DNA from: Candidatus Pygmaiobacter gallistercoris | GTDB taxonomy: Bacteria > Bacillota > Clostridia > Oscillospirales > Ruminococcaceae | Reading direction: 5' to 3' | DNA: 9,950 nt | Assembly: GCA_019113125.1 (NCBI GenBank) | Contig: DXIA01000184.1 | Coordinates: forward strand, 1-9,950 | Shown here: piece by piece, positions 2 to 8,802 of the stretch | Layout of the letters: every line of letters begins with the position of its first letter | Numbering within the stretch: the stretch's first letter is position 1 | The notes under the pieces: model-generated | The model's database searches: none | The model's input: the letters and a program-made list of their open reading frames with translations, nothing else | What the model was told of the DNA's origin: nothing | Made by a program: the position numbers and the translations under genes

Positions 2-94
2 CATGCATATGGTTTTAACGTTAAAACTATGACGGAAAGTTCGTGTGTCGCTGAGTTGATGAAGCTATATCAATCCATGACATCAGGAAAGTAA
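2..94 (+). CDS. C-terminal end of an unidentified protein (5' partial)
   Basis: Reading frame 2 is open from the left edge for 30 codons and stops at TAA 92-94, four bases before a strong intrinsic terminator, which is where the end of a gene would be expected. The visible tail reads HAYGFNVKTM at its start and ends in a helix-like stretch containing AELMKLYQSM. The amphipathic ending with LY is reminiscent of the C-terminal helix of GT4-type glycosyltransferases, but this is too little sequence to identify a family. GC content here is about 40%, much lower than in the genes from 524 onward, so the gene may have a different origin. A 30-codon open frame could also arise by chance; the adjacent terminator is the main support. 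Confidence 0.45.
   Translation, partial: HAYGFNVKTMTESSCVAELMKLYQSMTSGK
12..27. repeat. Perfect 16-bp palindrome with central CG
   Basis: GTTTTAACGTTAAAAC is a perfect palindrome. AT-rich palindromes with a central CG are the usual form of LacI-family operators. However, this one lies inside the probable 3' end of the left-edge gene and no convincing promoter is visible next to it, so it may be coincidental. Confidence 0.3.
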
Positions 95-97
95 AAT

Positions 98-134
98 AAA
101 CGGCAGATGTTTTGTTACATCTGCCGTTTTATTT
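98..134 (+). terminator. Intrinsic terminator after the left-edge gene
   Basis: Perfect 10-bp stem CGGCAGATGT (101-110) / ACATCTGCCG (117-126) with a 6-base loop TTTGTT. It is extended by A:T pairs (AAA before, TTT after) and followed by TTTTATTT at 127-134. The A-rich left flank becomes a T-run on the other strand, so it could also act on leftward transcripts. The stem arm CGGCAGAT recurs in the terminator at 2989-3021. Confidence 0.85.
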
Positions 135-197
135 ACTACCTTTCCCGCCTACTTCGACACGATTTCAAGTTCATCATATGAACAATTTCTAAAAACA

Positions 198-232
198 GTA
201 AAATGGTGTAATTCATTTTACCAAGTTACACC
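198..232. repeat. Two overlapping, mutually exclusive inverted repeats
   Basis: First repeat: GTAAAATG (198-205) pairs with CATTTTAC (214-221). Second repeat: GGTGTAA (205-211) pairs with TTACACC (226-232). The second left arm lies in the loop of the first, so a transcript could form only one at a time, which is the geometry of an attenuator or a pseudoknot. A run of six or seven T follows at about 244-249. No gene is placed to be controlled by it, so function is unknown. Confidence 0.4.
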
Positions 233-478
233 CTTGTTTAAACTTTTTTATGCGGCGCTGGTAATATTTTTCATCTTCCGGCCGCAGCGTCGGCCCACCG
301 CAGGAAATCGCAGATCTCGGAGATCGCCCCTCTGATGCACAGCTCATTGAGTAGCTCATATCGGCACCGGAATAGAGGTGGCGGTGGTCGGCCGCCTCTG
401 GACGGCGAAGAGGCTACTCAACGCCTGCACCCCCGCACCGCGGCCGCCGACCGAATTCTCGGCATCCCAACCGATTTC
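213..478 (-). pseudogene. Possible decayed gene in three frames
   Basis: The minus strand from the terminator of the MATE gene leftward carries three successive open segments with GC-rich third positions that look protein-like. Segment 478-356 begins EIGWDAENSV and contains ALSSLFAVQ. Segment about 370-271 contains YELLNELCIRGAISEICDFL. Segment about 285-213 contains EDEKYYQRRIKKFKQG and stops at TGA. Joining them needs two single frameshifts. No start codon with a ribosome binding site is present at the upstream end, which abuts the terminator at 486-520, so this would be a 3' remnant. The family is not recognised. In GC-rich DNA spurious coding-like frames are common, so the call is tentative. 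A 48-codon ORF from ATG 359 to TGA 213 also exists but has no good ribosome binding site. Confidence 0.22.
347..421. repeat. Long-spaced inverted repeat with inner hairpin
   Basis: TTGAGTAGC (347-355) is the reverse complement of GCTACTCAA (413-421). Between them AGAGG (374-378) pairs with CCTCT (395-399), helped by CGG/CCG, giving a GC-rich inner hairpin. The ends do not match the integron attC consensus and no tRNA fold was found. Confidence 0.35.
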
Positions 479-485
479 CTATCAT

Positions 486-520
486 AAAAAAGAACCGGGG
501 AATCTCCCCGGTTCTTTTTT
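486..520 (-). terminator. Bidirectional terminator behind the MATE gene
   Basis: Stem AAAAAAGAACCGGGGA (486-501) / TCCCCGGTTCTTTTTT (505-520) around a three-base loop ATC. It starts three bases after the MATE stop codon on the minus strand, and the A-run at 486-491 is the T-run of that transcript. T7 on the plus strand also makes it a usable rightward terminator. Confidence 0.92.
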
Positions 521-523
521 TGT

Positions 524-1879
524 TTAGACTAACCGCTTTGTCTTCCAGCGGCCGCTGAGATACCGTCCGAGAAAGAGGATCACCCGGACGATCCAGTCGA
601 CATACATCGCGTACCAGACCCCGTTGATCCCCATCCCGAACCGCTGGGCCAGCAGGTAGGACAGGCCGATCCGGAAGGCCCACATCGAGATCATCGAGGC
701 GGCCATCGTGAACTTCACATCGCCGGCGGCCCGCAGGATGTTCGGGAAGGTGAAACTCATCACCCAGATCAGCGCGCCCAGCAGGTAGTAGGTGTACATG
801 ATCTCCTTGGTGAGGGCCGCGGTCTCGGCCGAGAGGGAGAAGGGCAGGATCACCACCGGCAGCGCGACGGCGAACAGCAGGCAGAGGGTCGCCTTGCAGA
901 GGAAGGCGAGGAAGGTGAGTTTCTTGCCGTACCTGACCGCCTGGTCGTAGTCCTTCGCGCCGACGCACTGGCCGATGACGGTGGTCATCGACAGGCCGAT
1001 CGCCTGGGCCGGGATCTGGGGCAGGGTGCACAGGGTGTTGCAGACCGCGTTCGCCGCGATGGCGACGGTGCCGAAGGTGGCGACCAGGCTCTGGACCAGG
1101 ATCTTGCCGATCTGGAACATCCCGTTCTCGAGGCCGTTGGGCACCCCGATGCCGAGGATCCGGCGGATCATCCGCCCCTCCGGCCGGAAGGCGCGCCAGC
1201 CGGTCAGGGTGATCTGGAGAATCGGGTTGCGCAGCAGCCAGAGCAGCATCGCGGCGCCGACGATCCGGGAGATCAGGGTCGGGATCGCCGCCCCGACGAC
1301 CCCCCAGCCGAGGCCGAAGATGCAGATCGCGTTGCCGACGATGTTGACCGCGTTGGCGATCAGCGAGGCCTTGAGCGAGACCTTGCTGTTGCCCATCGAG
1401 CGGAAGATCGCCGCCCCGGCGTTGTAGACCGCGATAAACGGGTAGGAGAGGGCGGTGATCAGAAAGTAGTTCTCGGCATCGGTCATGACCACCGGGTCGA
1501 CCGCGCCGAAGAGCCAGCGCAGCACCGGGCCGCGGGCGACGGCGCAGAGCACCCCGAGCCCCCCGCCGAGCACCGCGACGATGAAGACCAGCTGCTTTGC
1601 GGCCCGGTTGGCCCGGGTCTCGTCCCTCGTGCCGAGGTACTGGCTGACCACGATCGCGCCGCCGGCGGCGAGGGCCGAGAAGACGTTGATCATCAGCACG
1701 TTGAGGGAGTCGACCAGCGAGACCGCCGAGACGGCGCTCTCCCCGGCGTTTGCCACCATGACGGTGTCCATCATGCCGGTGAGCACCAGCAGAAACTGCT
1801 CGCCCACCAGCGGCCAGATCAGCCGCCGCAGCGCGGCGTTCGAGAACATCGGTTTTTCGATTGTCTGGGTCTGTTCCAC
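524..1879 (-). CDS. MATE family multidrug/metabolite efflux transporter
   Basis: A 451-residue polytopic membrane protein, the usual length for the multidrug and toxic compound extrusion family, which exports cationic drugs or metabolites by Na+ or H+ antiport. It is built from two MatE repeats of six helices each. The first covers about residues 15-215, with GMMDTVMVANAG at 35-46 and NAGAAIFRSMGNSK at 153-166. The second starts near 240 with GVPNGLENGMFQIGK (245-259). The start is GTG at 1879-1877, preceded by GAGGAG eight bases upstream; an ATG in between is out of frame, and an internal in-frame ATG at codon 11 lacks this ribosome binding site. It is a single-gene unit with its own promoter (1918-1946) and terminator (486-520), divergent from the dehydrogenase gene. 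The substrate cannot be told from sequence, and no adjacent regulator gene is seen. Confidence 0.93.
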   Translation of the reverse strand: MEQTQTIEKPMFSNAALRRLIWPLVGEQFLLVLTGMMDTVMVANAGESAVSAVSLVDSLNVLMINVFSALAAGGAIVVSQYLGTRDETRANRAAKQLVFIVAVLGGGLGVLCAVARGPVLRWLFGAVDPVVMTDAENYFLITALSYPFIAVYNAGAAIFRSMGNSKVSLKASLIANAVNIVGNAICIFGLGWGVVGAAIPTLISRIVGAAMLLWLLRNPILQITLTGWRAFRPEGRMIRRILGIGVPNGLENGMFQIGKILVQSLVATFGTVAIAANAVCNTLCTLPQIPAQAIGLSMTTVIGQCVGAKDYDQAVRYGKKLTFLAFLCKATLCLLFAVALPVVILPFSLSAETAALTKEIMYTYYLLGALIWVMSFTFPNILRAAGDVKFTMAASMISMWAFRIGLSYLLAQRFGMGINGVWYAMYVDWIVRVILFLGRYLSGRWKTKRLV

Positions 1880-1917
1880 CCGCCCATCTCCTCTTTTACA
1901 AAAATTTTACCTCCAAA

Positions 1918-1946
1918 ATTCTATTCCCTTCCCCCGCCCTTGTCAA
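1918..1946 (-). promoter_or_regulatory. Sigma-A promoter of the MATE gene
   Basis: On the minus strand TTGACA (1946-1941), a 17-base spacer and TAGAAT (1923-1918) form a near-consensus promoter. It is about 40 bases upstream of the GTG start, leaving a short leader with GAGGAG. Its -35 box overlaps that of the oppositely directed promoter at 1940-1967. Confidence 0.8.
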
Positions 1947-1967
1947 CACCCGCAGGGCTGGTATAAT
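1940..1967 (+). promoter_or_regulatory. Sigma-A promoter of the dehydrogenase gene
   Basis: TTGTCA (1940-1945), a 16-base spacer and TATAAT (1962-1967), with the extended -10 element TGG directly before the hexamer. The -35 box shares bases 1941-1945 with the -35 box of the divergent MATE promoter. Confidence 0.8.
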
Positions 1968-2016
1968 AAAGGGAGAAAAACCCTGCGCGCAGCGCTCAGG
2001 AAAGGAAGTTTTGAAG

Positions 2017-2970
2017 ATGAAGATTGTTCTGCTGGAATCCCTCGCGGTCAGCGATCAGCGGGTGGCCGCCCTCGCCGCGCCGCTGATCGCCGCCGGTCAC
2101 AGCTTTACCGCCTATGCGGACGGCGCGACCGACGAGGCGGTGCTCATCGAGCGGGCGAAGGACGCCGACATCCTGATGGTCGCGAGCAGCCCGCTGCCCG
2201 CCGCGGTGGTCGCCGCCTGTGACCACCTCAAGCTGATCTCGGTCGCCTTCACCGGGGTGGACCACCTGCCGATGGCCCTCTGTCGGGAGCGGGGGATCCT
2301 GGTCTCGAACTGCGCCGGCTACTCGAACGAGAGCGTCGCCGAGCTGGTCTTCGGGATGGTCTTCTCGCTGCTGCGCCGGATCCCGGCCTGCGACAAGGCG
2401 GCCCGCGCGGGCGGCACCAAGGCGGGGCTGGTCGGCTTTGAGCTCGCCGGCAAGACCTTCGGCATCGTCGGCACCGGCGCGATCGGGCTGCGGGTGGCCG
2501 CCCTCGCCAAGGCGTTCGGCTGCAAGCTGGTCGGCTACAGCCGCTCTGAGCGCCCCGAGGCAAAGGCGCTCGGCCTCACCTATCTGCCGCTCGACGAGCT
2601 GATGGCCACCGCCGATGTGGTCAGCCTCCACGTCCCGGCGACCGACGCGACCCGCGGGCTGATCGGCAAAGCGCAGATCGCGAAGATGAAACGGGACGCG
2701 CTGCTGATCAACACCGCCCGCGGCCCGGTGCTGGACAGCGCCGCCCTCGCCGCCGCCCTCAACGAGGGGCGGATCGCCGGCGCCGGCATCGACGTCTTCG
2801 AGACCGAGCCCCCGATCCCGTCGGACCACCCGCTGCTCTGCGCGCCGAACACCATCCTGACCCCCCATGTCGCGTTTGCGACCGCCCAGAGCATGGAGGT
2901 GCGGGCCGGCATGGTCTTTGAGAATGTCAGCTGCTACCTCGAGGGCAAGCCCCGCAACCTGATGGGCTGA
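2017..2970 (+). CDS. D-2-hydroxyacid dehydrogenase family oxidoreductase (NAD(P)-dependent)
   Basis: A 317-residue cytoplasmic enzyme, full length for the D-isomer specific 2-hydroxyacid dehydrogenases, which interconvert 2-keto acids and D-2-hydroxy acids. The split substrate domain (about 1-100 and 285-317) flanks a Rossmann domain with GTGAIG at residues 152-157. The catalytic trio of the family is present: Arg235 in NTARGPVLD, Glu264 in DVFETEPP, and His284 in LTPHVAF. The ATG at 2017 is chosen because GGAAAGGAAG sits about eight bases upstream; longer versions of the frame reach back across the promoter at 1940-1967 and cannot be right. A TTG two codons earlier is a weaker alternative. 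It is monocistronic, with its own promoter and a terminator at 2989-3021. Exact substrate (phosphoglycerate, hydroxypyruvate/glyoxylate, lactate or another keto acid) is not resolvable; the lack of a C-terminal ACT domain argues against a long-form SerA. Confidence 0.92.
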   Translation: MKIVLLESLAVSDQRVAALAAPLIAAGHSFTAYADGATDEAVLIERAKDADILMVASSPLPAAVVAACDHLKLISVAFTGVDHLPMALCRERGILVSNCAGYSNESVAELVFGMVFSLLRRIPACDKAARAGGTKAGLVGFELAGKTFGIVGTGAIGLRVAALAKAFGCKLVGYSRSERPEAKALGLTYLPLDELMATADVVSLHVPATDATRGLIGKAQIAKMKRDALLINTARGPVLDSAALAAALNEGRIAGAGIDVFETEPPIPSDHPLLCAPNTILTPHVAFATAQSMEVRAGMVFENVSCYLEGKPRNLMG

Positions 2971-2988
2971 AATTTCTCCCAAAACAAC

Positions 2989-3021
2989 AACGGCAGATCC
3001 CGCGGGATCTGCCGTTTTTTT
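2989..3021 (+). terminator. Terminator of the dehydrogenase gene
   Basis: Stem CGGCAGATCC (2991-3000) / GGATCTGCCG (3005-3014), joined by CGCG and flanked by AA/TT, is followed by seven T (3015-3021). It lies between convergent genes. On the minus strand the following tract is TTGTTGTTTT, so it may serve the methyltransferase transcript less efficiently. Confidence 0.92.
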
Positions 3022-4385: not shown

Positions 4386-4865
4386 ATGGAGATCGAGCGC
4401 AAATGGGCGATTGAGGGCTTTCCCGCGGGACTGCCCCAGATCGACGCGGCCCGGATGGAGCAGCGGTATCTGACCACCCGGCCGGTGGTGCGGATCCGGC
4501 GGGAGGAGCGGGGGGAGAAGGTCTCCCGGATCCTCTGCATCAAGGGGCCGGGCAACCTCGCGCGGGAGGAGATCGAGCTTTCGATCCCCGAGGAGACCTA
4601 TGACCGGATCGCGGCGCTGATCGGCCACCCGCCGATCGTCAAGGCGTACCGCGCCTACCGGCTGCCGGGGGGCGAAACGCTGGAGGTCAGCCGGGTGTCG
4701 GGGGCGACCGACGCCCCCTTCTACTACGCCGAGGTCGAGTTTGCCACCCTCGCGGCGGCAAAGGCATTCGTCCCGCCCGCCTTTCTCGGCGAGGAGCTGA
4801 CCGACCGGCCGGGCAGCTCGATGGGGGCGCTCTGGGAGAGCCGGTACGGAAGGGGGACGCTGTGA
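4386..4865 (+). CDS. CYTH domain protein (triphosphate tunnel metalloenzyme)
   Basis: A 159-residue protein covering one complete CYTH domain. The diagnostic ExExK signature is at the extreme N-terminus (Glu2, Glu4, Lys6 in MEIERKW). The beta-barrel shows further charged strands expected to line the tunnel: VRIRRE, LCIKGPGNLAREEIEL, YRLPGGETLEV and YYAEVEF. Members bind triphosphate with metal ions; bacterial stand-alone CYTH proteins are mostly inorganic triphosphatases or thiamine triphosphatases, with class IV adenylate cyclase a rarer activity. Hydrolysis of inorganic or organic triphosphate in the cytoplasm is therefore the likely role. Start ATG has GGAGGTGA about six bases upstream. 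It is the first gene of the operon, and its TGA stop shares one base with the ATG of the next gene, implying translational coupling, though no functional link to glycoside use is evident. Confidence 0.9.
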   Translation: MEIERKWAIEGFPAGLPQIDAARMEQRYLTTRPVVRIRREERGEKVSRILCIKGPGNLAREEIELSIPEETYDRIAALIGHPPIVKAYRAYRLPGGETLEVSRVSGATDAPFYYAEVEFATLAAAKAFVPPAFLGEELTDRPGSSMGALWESRYGRGTL

Positions 4866-7800
4866 TGGAGCAGAAGAAGACCGTTTCCCGCCTCGGGGGC
4901 CGCCGCTGGGCGGCGCTGCTCGCGCTGGGGCTGGTCGGCCAGCTCGCCTGGACGATCGAGAACATGTACCTAAACCTCTTTGTCTACAACACCATCCTCG
5001 CCGACGCCGGGGTGATCGCCGACATGGTGGCGGCGAGCGCGGTGACCGCCACCCTCACCACCCTGCTGATGGGGGCGCTGTCGGATCGCCTGGGCCGCCG
5101 GCGGGGATTCATCGCGGGGGGGTATCTGGTCTGGGGGCTCTCGGTGATGCTGTTCGGGCTGCTGAGCGTCGCCAACATCTCCCGGCTCTTCCCCGCCGCC
5201 GACGCGGCGCTGCTGACCGCCCGGCTGGTCATCGCGGCCGACTGCCTGATGACCTTCTTCGGCTCGACGGCGAACGACGCCGCCTTCAACGCCTGGGTCA
5301 CCGACGTGACCGACCCGGACAACCGCGGCCGGGTGGAGTCGGTCCTCTCGGTGCTCCCCCTCGCCGCGATGCTGATCCTCTTCGGCGGGTTTGACGCGAT
5401 GACCGCCGCCGGCCGCTGGCAGGAGTTCTTCTTCCTCTTCGGCGCCCTCGTCACCGGCTGCGGGCTGCTCGCCCTCTTTCTGGTGCGGGACAGCGCCGAG
5501 CTGCGGCCGGTGCGCCGGGGGATCGCCGAGGGGCTGCTCTACGGCTTTCGCCCCGCCGCGGTCGCCGCAAACCCGAAACTCTACCTGACCTACCTCGCCC
5601 TCGCGCTGTTCGGGGCGTCGACCCAGGTCTTCATGCCCTACCTCATCATCTATCTGCAGCGGTACCTCGGGCTTGCAAACTACGCGCTGGTGCTCGGGGT
5701 GGTGCTGCTCGGGGCGGGGGCGGTCAGCGTCGGCTGCGGCCGGCTGATCGACCGGTTTGGCAAGCTGCGGTTCGTGCTGCCGGCGGCGGCGCTCGAGATT
5801 GTCGGCCTCATCGCGATGGTCTTCGCCCGCGCCCCGCTGCCGGTGATCGGGGCGGGTTTGCTCCTGCTGTCCGGCAACATGCTGGTCACCTCCGCCCTCA
5901 ACGGGCTCGCGCGGGACTACACCCCGGCGGGCAAGGCGGGGCATTTTCAGGGGGTGCGGATGATCTTCGCGGTGCTGCTGCCGATGGTCACCGGCCCCTA
6001 CCTCGGGGCGGCGGTGATCCAGAATTCCGGCTCGATCTACACCGAGCTCGGGGTGACCAAGCAGGTGCCCACCCCGATGATCTTCCTCGCGAGTGCCCTC
6101 GTCCTCGCCCTTGTCGCGCTGCCCGCCCTCGCCCTCGGCCGGTCGGTGCGGCGGGACGCGCCGCTTGAATCCCTCCTCACCCCCTACGGCGAGCAGCTCG
6201 ACCCCGACGCGCCGCTGCCCGAGTACCCCCGCCCCCAGTTCGCCCGGGCGGCGGAGAGCTGGCGGAATCTCAACGGCCGGTGGGACTACGCGATCCGGCC
6301 CGCCGGCGCCGCGATGGGGGAGCCGGACGGCCAGATCGTCGTCCCCTTCTCCCCCGAGAGCCTGCTCTCCGGGGTCGGCCGGCAGCTGCAGCCGGGCGAG
6401 ACCCTCTGGTACCGGCGGCGGTTCGCGGTCACCGGGCTGCCGGGCAGCGGGCGGCTGCTGCTCCACTTCGGGGCGGTCGACCAGCGCTGCAGGGTCTTTG
6501 TCAATGACCAGCCGGCCGGCGACCACGCCGACGGCTACCTGCCCTTCACCCTCGAGATCACCCACCTGGTGCGGGAGGGGGAGAACACCCTCACCCTCGC
6601 GGTGGAGGACGACAGCGACAAGGGGATCTGGGCCTACGGCAAGCAGAAACTGCGCCGGGGCGGCATCTGGTACACCGCCCAGAGCGGCATCTGGCAGACC
6701 GTCTGGCTCGAGCGGGTGCCCCAGAACTACCTCGAGACGGTCCGGGTCACCCCCGACGCCGCAGAGGGGGCGGTGACCTTCGCGCCGGTCTTTGGGCCGG
6801 GCAGCGCCGCCGGTCCGGTCGAGATCACCCTCCTCGCGGACGGGCGGCCGGTCGCGGCCGGCACCGCGCAGCCGGACGCCCCGCTGCGGCTCACCCTCGA
6901 CAGCCCCCACCTCTGGAGCCCCGAGGACCCCTTCCTCTACCGGTTTGTCGCCCGGATGGGGGAGGACCTCGCCGAGGGGTACTTCGGGCTGCGGGATATC
7001 GGAATCGGCCGGGATGAAACGGGCACCCCCCGGCTGCTGCTCAACGGCAAGCCCTATTTCCAGGCAGGGCTGCTCGACCAGGGCTACTGGTCGGACGGGC
7101 TCTACACCGCCCCGTCGGACCAGGCGATGATCGACGACATCACCGCCGCGAAGGAGATGGGGTTCAACCTGCTGCGCAAGCACATCAAGATCGAGCCCGC
7201 CCGCTGGTACTACCACTGCGACCGGCTCGGGATGCTGGTCTGGCAGGACATGGTCAGCGGCGGCGGGCCCTACCGGCCGATGGTGATCCAGGTGCTGCCC
7301 TTCCTCGGTTTCAAGCTGCGGGACCGCCACTACCGCCGGTTTGGCCGGGGGGACCCCGCGAGCCGGGCCGAGGCGGTCCGCACCCGGGACCTCACCGTCG
7401 AGGCGCTCTATAACTTCCCCAGCATTGTGGTCTGGGTGCCCTTCAACGAGGGCTGGGGCCAGTTTGACGCGGCCGAGGCGGCGCGGGCGCTGCACCGGCT
7501 CGACCCCAGCCGGGTCGTCGACCACGCCAGCGGCTGGCACGACCAGGGGGGCGACGACCTCGCGAGCCTGCACATCTACTTTCGGCGGCTCGCCGCGCGG
7601 CCGGATCCCGCCGGGCGGCCGGTGGTGCTCTCGGAGTTCGGCGGCTACAGCTGCGCGCTGCCGGGCCACACCGCCTCACAGCGGCAGTTCGGCTACCGGC
7701 GGTACGGCACCACCGATGAGCTGATGGCCGGCTATACCGACCTGATCGAGCGGGAGCTGCTGCCGCTGCGGGGGATCCTCTCGGCGAGCGTCTACACCCA

Positions 7801-7939
7801 GCTGACCGACGTCGAGGAGGAGGTCAACGGCCTGTTGACCTATGACCGGCGCTGCCGCAAGTTCGACGCGGCCGAGCTGCGCGCGATCAACGAGCGGCTG
7901 CGGCGGGAGCCCGCGGAAGGGGGGGACACCCCGGTTTGA
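4865..7939 (+). CDS. MFS transporter fused to glycoside hydrolase family 2 enzyme
   Basis: A 1024-residue fusion. Residues about 12-424 form 12 hydrophobic helices of a major facilitator transporter, with the loop 2-3 signature GALSDRLGRRR (70-80) and its pseudo-repeat GRLIDRFGK in the second half. After helix 12 a linker of about 12 residues leads to LTPYGEQLDPDAPLPEYPRPQ (from about 438), the usual N-terminus of GH2 enzymes. The sugar-binding beta-sandwich is about 438-615, the Ig-like domain about 620-720 and the TIM barrel about 725-1010. Acid/base Glu862 lies in FNEGWG and nucleophile Glu924 in SEFGG. Both halves are near normal stand-alone length. With 12 helices and no signal peptide the hydrolase should face the cytoplasm, so an imported glycoside could be cleaved at the transporter exit. 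The glucuronidase NxK signature appears absent. No in-frame ATG occurs between codons 405 and 484. A GTG one codon earlier is an alternative start; AGGGGG lies eight bases before the ATG. Confidence 0.92.
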   Translation: MEQKKTVSRLGGRRWAALLALGLVGQLAWTIENMYLNLFVYNTILADAGVIADMVAASAVTATLTTLLMGALSDRLGRRRGFIAGGYLVWGLSVMLFGLLSVANISRLFPAADAALLTARLVIAADCLMTFFGSTANDAAFNAWVTDVTDPDNRGRVESVLSVLPLAAMLILFGGFDAMTAAGRWQEFFFLFGALVTGCGLLALFLVRDSAELRPVRRGIAEGLLYGFRPAAVAANPKLYLTYLALALFGASTQVFMPYLIIYLQRYLGLANYALVLGVVLLGAGAVSVGCGRLIDRFGKLRFVLPAAALEIVGLIAMVFARAPLPVIGAGLLLLSGNMLVTSALNGLARDYTPAGKAGHFQGVRMIFAVLLPMVTGPYLGAAVIQNSGSIYTELGVTKQVPTPMIFLASALVLALVALPALALGRSVRRDAPLESLLTPYGEQLDPDAPLPEYPRPQFARAAESWRNLNGRWDYAIRPAGAAMGEPDGQIVVPFSPESLLSGVGRQLQPGETLWYRRRFAVTGLPGSGRLLLHFGAVDQRCRVFVNDQPAGDHADGYLPFTLEITHLVREGENTLTLAVEDDSDKGIWAYGKQKLRRGGIWYTAQSGIWQTVWLERVPQNYLETVRVTPDAAEGAVTFAPVFGPGSAAGPVEITLLADGRPVAAGTAQPDAPLRLTLDSPHLWSPEDPFLYRFVARMGEDLAEGYFGLRDIGIGRDETGTPRLLLNGKPYFQAGLLDQGYWSDGLYTAPSDQAMIDDITAAKEMGFNLLRKHIKIEPARWYYHCDRLGMLVWQDMVSGGGPYRPMVIQVLPFLGFKLRDRHYRRFGRGDPASRAEAVRTRDLTVEALYNFPSIVVWVPFNEGWGQFDAAEAARALHRLDPSRVVDHASGWHDQGGDDLASLHIYFRRLAARPDPAGRPVVLSEFGGYSCALPGHTASQRQFGYRRYGTTDELMAGYTDLIERELLPLRGILSASVYTQLTDVEEEVNGLLTYDRRCRKFDAAELRAINERLRREPAEGGDTPV

Positions 7940-8802
7940 AACAAAACTATCTGCGGGTGGTGACCGCGACGCTGCTTTTTGGCAGCATCGGGCTGTTCGT
8001 CCGGGCGATCCCGCTGCCGAGCGCCGTCATCGCGTTTGCCCGGGCGGTGATCGGCGCGGCGGTGCTGCTCGCCGCCGCCTTTCTCACCGGGCAGCCGCCC
8101 CGGCTCGCCGCGATCCGCCGCCAGCTGCTCCCCCTCGCCCTCTCGGGGGCGTTCATCGGGATCAACTGGATCCTGCTCTTCGAGGCCTACCGGTACACCA
8201 CCGTCAGCATCGCGACCATCGCCTACTACACCTCGCCGGTGCTGGTGGTGCTCGCCGCACCGCTGGTGCTGCGCGAGTCCTTCTCGGCCGCAAAGCTCGT
8301 CGGGGTGCTCGCCGCGGCGGCCGGCACCCTGCTGCTGACCGGCACCGGCGGGGCGGCGGGGCCCGACCCGGTGCGGGGGGTGCTGCTCGGGCTCGGCGCG
8401 GCGGTCTTCTACGCGGCGGTGATCCTGACCAACAAGTTCATCTCTGGGCTCTCGGGGCTCGAGCGGACCGGCACCCAGCTGGCCTTCGCGGCGATCACCC
8501 TCGCCCCCTACCTGCTCGTCACCCGGCCCGCCCCGACCGGCCGGATGACCGCCGCCGCCCTCCTCTGCCTCGCCGTCGTCGGGCTGATCCACACCGGCTT
8601 TGCCTATCTGCTCTACTTCTCGGCGATGGCAGAGCTGCCCGGCCAGACCATCGCGCTGCTGGGGTATCTCGACCCGCTCAGCGCGCTGCTCTTCTCGGCG
8701 CTGCTGCTCCGCGAGCGGCTCGCCCCGCTCCAGCTCGCCGGGGCGGCGCTGGTCCTCGCCGGGGCCCTCTTCGGGGAGCTGTGGCAGCGAAAAAGGCGAT
8801 AA
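7936..8802 (+). CDS. EamA/DMT superfamily permease
   Basis: A 288-residue membrane protein with ten predicted helices arranged as two EamA repeats (about 5-137 and 148-284), the standard form of the drug/metabolite transporter superfamily. Typical features are the first helix ATLLFGSIGLFVRAIP, the Glu/aromatic motif NWILLFEAYRYTTVSIATIAYYTSPV, and its second-half counterpart GFAYLLYFSAMAELPGQTIA, ending in a basic cytoplasmic tail. Such proteins export or import amino acids, nucleosides or other small metabolites; the substrate is not predictable. The start is TTG at 7936, overlapping the previous stop as TTGA (four bases), with GGAAGGGGGG about ten bases upstream. No earlier or later start preserves helix 1 as well. 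It is the last gene of the operon, possibly exporting a product or by-product of glycoside breakdown, which is inference only. Its TAA stop merges into the terminator. Confidence 0.9.
   Translation: MKQNYLRVVTATLLFGSIGLFVRAIPLPSAVIAFARAVIGAAVLLAAAFLTGQPPRLAAIRRQLLPLALSGAFIGINWILLFEAYRYTTVSIATIAYYTSPVLVVLAAPLVLRESFSAAKLVGVLAAAAGTLLLTGTGGAAGPDPVRGVLLGLGAAVFYAAVILTNKFISGLSGLERTGTQLAFAAITLAPYLLVTRPAPTGRMTAAALLCLAVVGLIHTGFAYLLYFSAMAELPGQTIALLGYLDPLSALLFSALLLRERLAPLQLAGAALVLAGALFGELWQRKRR

Follow-up and report, generated by a model that had tools for sequence, protein, structure and literature searches.

The window considered here (9,950 nucleotides of contig DXIA01000184.1 from Candidatus Pygmaiobacter gallistercoris) raises the question whether a transporter of the major facilitator superfamily (MFS) and an enzyme of glycoside hydrolase family 2 (GH2) are made as one protein, and what such a protein could do for the cell. 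The open reading frame concerned (4865..7939; like all its features given below, on the + strand) is open throughout from the ATG at 4865, or the GTG at 4862 as alternative start, to the stop ending at 7939 and encodes 1024 amino acids. Ahead of the start, the Shine-Dalgarno-like stretch ggaaggggg can be read from the sequence (4848..4856). The fusion is a real, conserved single protein and not an accident of assembly. The strongest new point of the analysis is a recurrent evolutionary pattern of fused and split forms, which was not foreseen in the earlier sequence-only reading of this DNA.

One chain of transporter and hydrolase

The sequence-only reading had claimed one uninterrupted frame for an MFS permease and a complete GH2 enzyme, and this was borne out by the length of the frame, by Pfam domains of both types and by an AlphaFold2 model. 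The model (mean predicted local distance difference test, pLDDT, of 88.4; predicted template modelling score, pTM, of 0.72) comprises 12 membrane-type helices within residues 12-430 and a GH2 fold thereafter, and in the fold comparison it superposed on MFS structures over about residues 8-433 and on the solved structure 7SF2 over 433-1017.

The transporter part (residues 1-430; 4865..6154) matched MFS_1, a general Pfam profile, at 22-369 with 108.7 bits compared to a cut-off of 33.4. Profile match and 12-helix fold, the latter with all twelve hydrophobic helices described earlier, place it in the MFS. Averaged over 106 rows, the predicted inner loops contain 22.3 lysine and arginine residues compared to 6.4 in the outer ones. 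By this positive-inside count both ends, and with them the hydrolase, are predicted to be cytosolic, in agreement with the cytoplasmic C-terminus assumed before.

The hydrolase part (residues 434-1017; 6164..7915), delimited by Pfam and by comparison with solved structures, matched Glyco_hydro_2_N with 42 bits (cut-off 28), Glyco_hydro_2 with 28.3 (23) and Glyco_hydro_2_C with 28.9 (21). The two catalytic glutamates that had been noticed in the sequence are in place and invariant across 106 aligned fused proteins: E862 in NEGWGQ (7448..7450), the predicted acid/base, aligns with E464 of the galactofuranosidase ORF1110 discussed below, while E924 in SEFGG (7634..7636) is the predicted nucleophile, in keeping with the usual assignment in GH2. 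The three domains and both glutamates together assign this part to GH2.

Based on the model and the fold comparison, the two parts meet directly at residues 431-433 (6155..6163). The twelfth transmembrane helix ends near residue 430 and the portion matching solved GH2 structures begins at 433-435; the link is shorter than the roughly 12 residues estimated earlier. Between the last residue matched by the MFS profile and the EYPRP motif lie 24-30 residues in each of the 18 fused loci, which stem from several clades; this is approximately the sum of the MFS tail and the GH2 N-terminus that are free ends in split pairs. The model predicts a short rigid link that would hold the enzyme against the membrane.

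The joined region also recurs in other proteins. A search of a protein collection with residues 340-560 gave 2711 matches among 7993 candidates scored. Among the 120 matches listed (window included), 114 comprise 1007-1036 amino acids, and MFS_1 is combined with GH2 domains in 119; since fused proteins span both sides of the junction, this listing is biased toward them. Compared to the protein of L083, a locus from the same genus, the window showed no insertion or deletion from residue 7 to 678. The ratio of nonsynonymous to synonymous substitution (dN/dS) between the two was 0.196 for the MFS part and 0.194 for the GH2 part, compared to 0.55 across the 27 codons of the linker; purifying selection acts on both halves. 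A frameshift or overlooked stop near 6120-6200, the weak point named in the earlier reading, is very unlikely in view of the intact alignment and the low dN/dS on both sides. In its own genome the fusion gene is single-copy without internal stop, the other match being a weak GH2 one with 30% identity. An in-frame TGA noted in the relative G004 turned out to be merely the terminal stop of the gene.

Fused and split forms among relatives

Had relatives always possessed two separate genes, the fusion would have been in doubt; they include fused as well as separate neighbouring forms. In the genus of the window, the fused gene is present in three of seven genomes, in one of them truncated by contig ends, and the other four contain more distant GH2 genes only. 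At the family level, 31 of 197 genomes had a match at 1e-80; five showed both halves in one frame without stop, four showed two neighbouring matches and G049 showed both halves with a stop at the junction. The order draw gave 74 of 345 genomes at 1e-90, with ten one-frame cases (one cut by a contig end), ten neighbouring pairs and G331 with a stop between the halves. At the stricter limit of 1e-100, two of 398 genomes of the phylum had a match, and both halves were spanned only by that of the window. The two larger draws partly overlap, and the e-value limits differ between draws.

A profile search of 146 loci classed 144 GH2 rows. Of these, 18 are fused and 30 are directly preceded by an MFS gene of the same family; 84 count as alone, meaning that no same-family MFS lies within the stretch fetched (for many a flank of 1.5 kb; other transporters were not sought), and the remaining 12 lie close to an edge. 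The fused but cut-off locus L141 fell below the score limit and is outside the 18. In 23 of the 30 neighbouring pairs a candidate GH2 start lies ahead of the MFS stop, and 13 of these share xTGA. Fused loci with a named record all belong to Bacillota (L003, L004, L005), while neighbouring pairs are known also from Actinomycetota and Chloroflexota records. In the split pairs L121 and L093 both genes share one frame and are separated by nothing but a stop; on the trees L121 falls together with the fused L126, and these junctions may be recent state changes or sequence errors. A Christensenella record (L008:6013-9563) shows two overlapping tandem GH2 genes of this kind with no same-family MFS in the stretch.

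On the trees, a single fused clade was rejected for both halves (p value of the approximately unbiased test 3.1e-59 for MFS and 1.9e-49 for GH2), and with it the idea that the fused state arose just once, as one clade. The concatenated tree of 50 rows (8 of 58 excluded, five with distant MFS and three partial) required seven changes of the fused state, five of them forced by starred branches. The MFS tree of 58 rows gave five changes, all forced, and the GH2 FastTree of 155 rows eight, seven of them forced. Six changes were found in the FastTree of fused and adjacent forms (155 rows, leaving out five with distant MFS). In this last tree, which includes every listed protein of full length, the fused forms fell into clades of 92, 11, 10, 6, 5, 3, 2, 1 and 1, the window standing in the clade of 6. 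A comparison of fused clades A and B yielded a p of 0.013, which is weaker than its face value since it was chosen after the trees had been seen.

Since fused and split forms are interleaved, fusion, or fission, must have recurred. We lean towards repeated fusion, because joining two overlapping genes requires one small change, whereas fission also needs a new start. The ancestral arrangement was probably a pair of overlapping, translationally coupled genes. The distances of MFS and GH2 are correlated (r of 0.90 over 53 pairs and 0.60 over all 58), and the two are co-inherited also where they are neighbouring separate genes.

Enzyme kinship, proposed role and its rivals

The nearest solved relative of the GH2 half was 7SF2, a Bacteroides cellulosilyticus GH2 protein which, unlike the fusion, is a stand-alone chain. 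It was followed, well above all other solved GH2 chains, by the Streptomyces beta-D-galactofuranosidase 9J6M/9J6N (GH2_18) and by 7XYR (GH2_19). Judged by solved chains and not by official subfamily profiles, the nearest relation is accordingly to GH2 group III (GH2_18/GH2_19). Group III comprises furanosidases, with ORF1110 in GH2_18 (PMC12243196). This enzyme of Streptomyces sp. JHA19 (PDB 9J6M, 9J6N) is the closest characterised one to the GH2 half. It is described as galactofuranose-specific, carrying a signal peptide plus an AbfB domain but no transporter (PMC4560423), whereas the enzyme of the fusion is predicted to lie in the cytosol, bound to the membrane. According to PMC11084152, replacement of E464 lowered the catalytic efficiency of ORF1110 by factors of 56 to 3000, and the determinants of furanoside choice are stated as not known. 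The same paper gives E573 as nucleophile from a distant alignment; counted along our alignment with E464 as anchor, the GEFGG glutamate of ORF1110 (9J6N) aligned with E924 falls near 531. In group III the tryptophan of the -1 subsite is replaced by threonine (PMC12243196). T978, invariant in alignment A1 and aligned with a threonine in ORF1110, is a candidate for this residue.

A reading of the enzyme as beta-glucuronidase or LacZ-type beta-galactosidase was rejected, since its scores lie far under the NCBIfam equivalog cut-offs (76.5 bits compared to 544 for PRK10150, 70 to 999 for Bga2A and 60.9 to 1221 for PRK09525). In gusB with uidA and in the lac and mel systems, permease and glycosidase genes are neighbours, and uptake is followed by cytosolic cleavage. 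These are separate proteins with pyranoside substrates, and the GH2 part of the fusion stays far under those family cut-offs. The likeness to gusB/uidA drawn earlier did not hold for the enzyme: the score for the glucuronidase profile fell short, and among characterised enzymes a galactofuranosidase is nearest. From the sequence comparison, the point of reference should be changed to the furanosidases.

For the transporter half, no sequence match was found among solved structures. E32 in the first transmembrane helix and D126 and D138 in the fourth are identical in every ungapped row of 59, which would fit ion-coupled transport. We regard it as somewhat probable that the single protein imports a furanoside (containing galactofuranose or arabinofuranose) and would hydrolyse it on the cytosolic side of the membrane. 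The MFS part would take up the furanoside, probably coupled to ions by the three invariant acidic residues in the membrane. Since the C-terminus is predicted inside, the hydrolase would lie at the exit of the importer; the compound would be delivered straight to it and cleaved on arrival. Importer role, ion coupling, furanoside substrate and direct delivery as the purpose of the fusion are what we infer from these data, and the coupling of uptake and cleavage suggested by the sequence-only reading is plausible.

Several observations weigh against this proposal or its evolutionary background. 7SF2, the closest among solved structures, bears the title beta-galactosidase in its deposition, and at a pTM of 0.72 the relative placement of the halves and any tunnel are hypothetical. 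Furthermore, the 58-row GH2 tree required seven state changes of which just three were forced, and the counts do not separate fusion from fission. In five neighbouring pairs with long branches (L058, L095, L071, L078, L093) the MFS is much more distant, which indicates that the GH2 enzyme works with other partners; the pattern would fit several changes of partner by the enzyme. Since 84 of the 144 rows have no same-family MFS in the fetched stretch, the enzyme also occurs independently of this partner.

An artefact joining two genes, or a separate GH2 protein from an in-frame internal start, is hardly credible. A sequencing error is countered by the full-length relatives (113 other listed clusters) and by purifying selection without insertion or deletion against L083. 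The window does contain one in-frame GTG 25 codons ahead of EYPRP, but without a Shine-Dalgarno-like stretch, and L083 has no in-frame ATG, GTG or TTG within 36 codons before this motif. Such a start was found in 14 of 18 fused loci, with a Shine-Dalgarno-like stretch at just one (in L091), so that an internal start is no general feature and the separate GH2 polypeptide, considered earlier as a counter-explanation, finds little support. A genuine fusion without special mechanism, in which a one-base indel or stop loss easily joined co-translated overlapping genes and the domains act independently, the joining being harmless or equalising their amounts, is possible but on the whole doubtful. 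It would account for the overlap as the common split form (23/30), for a linker total as expected from simple end-to-end joining, for the mixture of forms on the trees and for the less constrained linker (dN/dS 0.55). It does not sit well with large and stable fused clades (92 rows in one) and the narrow linker range maintained in all 18 loci.

At the other end stands a dedicated import-and-cleave machine, in which the MFS exit would open onto the GH2 active site, the substrate would pass from one to the other without entering the cytosolic pool, and selection would have built the fusion several times from overlapping pairs; in this strict form it is rather unlikely. Quite improbable is an MFS part that acts as exporter or glycolipid flippase, with a glycoside of the cytosol or inner leaflet as substrate of GH2 and the MFS moving the product or lipid. 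The general MFS_1 match, the fold-closest solved chains, among them lysolipid transporters and drug exporters like NorA, and the flippase-enzyme case LplT-Aas would agree with it; however, fold rank among MFS chains says little on function, and 18 of the 120 listed fused proteins also matched MFS_2, to which sugar symporters like MelB belong.

Neighbouring genes, precedents and meaning

The stop of the upstream gene (4386-4865) shares one base with the ATG of the fusion, and the TTG start of an EamA-family transporter gene (7936-8802) overlaps its stop by four bases; due to these overlaps on both flanks, translation of all three may be coupled. For the upstream gene, whose start MEIERKW is reminiscent of CYTH proteins, no family was found at 0.001 in Pfam or NCBIfam. 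In two same-genus genomes a small gene, which we take to resemble flavodoxin-like proteins, directly follows the fused gene (L083:4112-4621, L084:2673-3176), and in L083 an EamA-like gene comes after it. Among 30 neighbour proteins scanned (17 loci; 107 picked), mostly of housekeeping or unnamed families and with one LacI-type regulator, no further glycosidase or sugar-catabolic family was found. The unit therefore looks self-contained, and these 30 neighbours gave no hint of its substrate.

The nearest precedent, by analogy, is LplT-Aas. According to PMC11416262, it combines an MFS-type flippase with an acyltransferase on the cytosolic side, encoded by operon neighbours in many bacteria and by one reading frame in some; in Escherichia coli the two proteins assemble into a complex for which a substrate tunnel is proposed, and the fused forms are termed uncharacterised. 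As here (30 adjacent and 18 fused loci), the same two functions are encoded side by side in some genomes and by a single gene in others. LplT-Aas moves and acylates lysophospholipids in a biosynthetic role, while the present fusion carries a glycosidase instead. A literature search on transporter-enzyme and transporter-glycosidase fusions and on galactofuranosidases, with most subscription papers outside its reach, named no MFS-GH2 fusion, and its galactofuranosidase part revealed no uptake route for galactofuranose or arabinofuranose compounds. A survey of glycoside hydrolase gene clusters treats hydrolase and transporter genes as neighbours, the words 'fusion' and 'fused' being absent from its accessible part (PMC10272396).

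About 80% of GH2_18, the subfamily of the closest characterised relative, carry secretion signals (PMC12243196). If the proposed role is true, a group III furanosidase would in contrast be placed inside the cell, and an uptake route would be provided for galactofuranose or arabinofuranose compounds. Coupling of transporter and enzyme is usually argued from gene neighbourhood. Since this pair is available in nature both as two overlapping genes and, within several clades, as a single chain, the value of joining the two is directly measurable by splitting or linking natural proteins.
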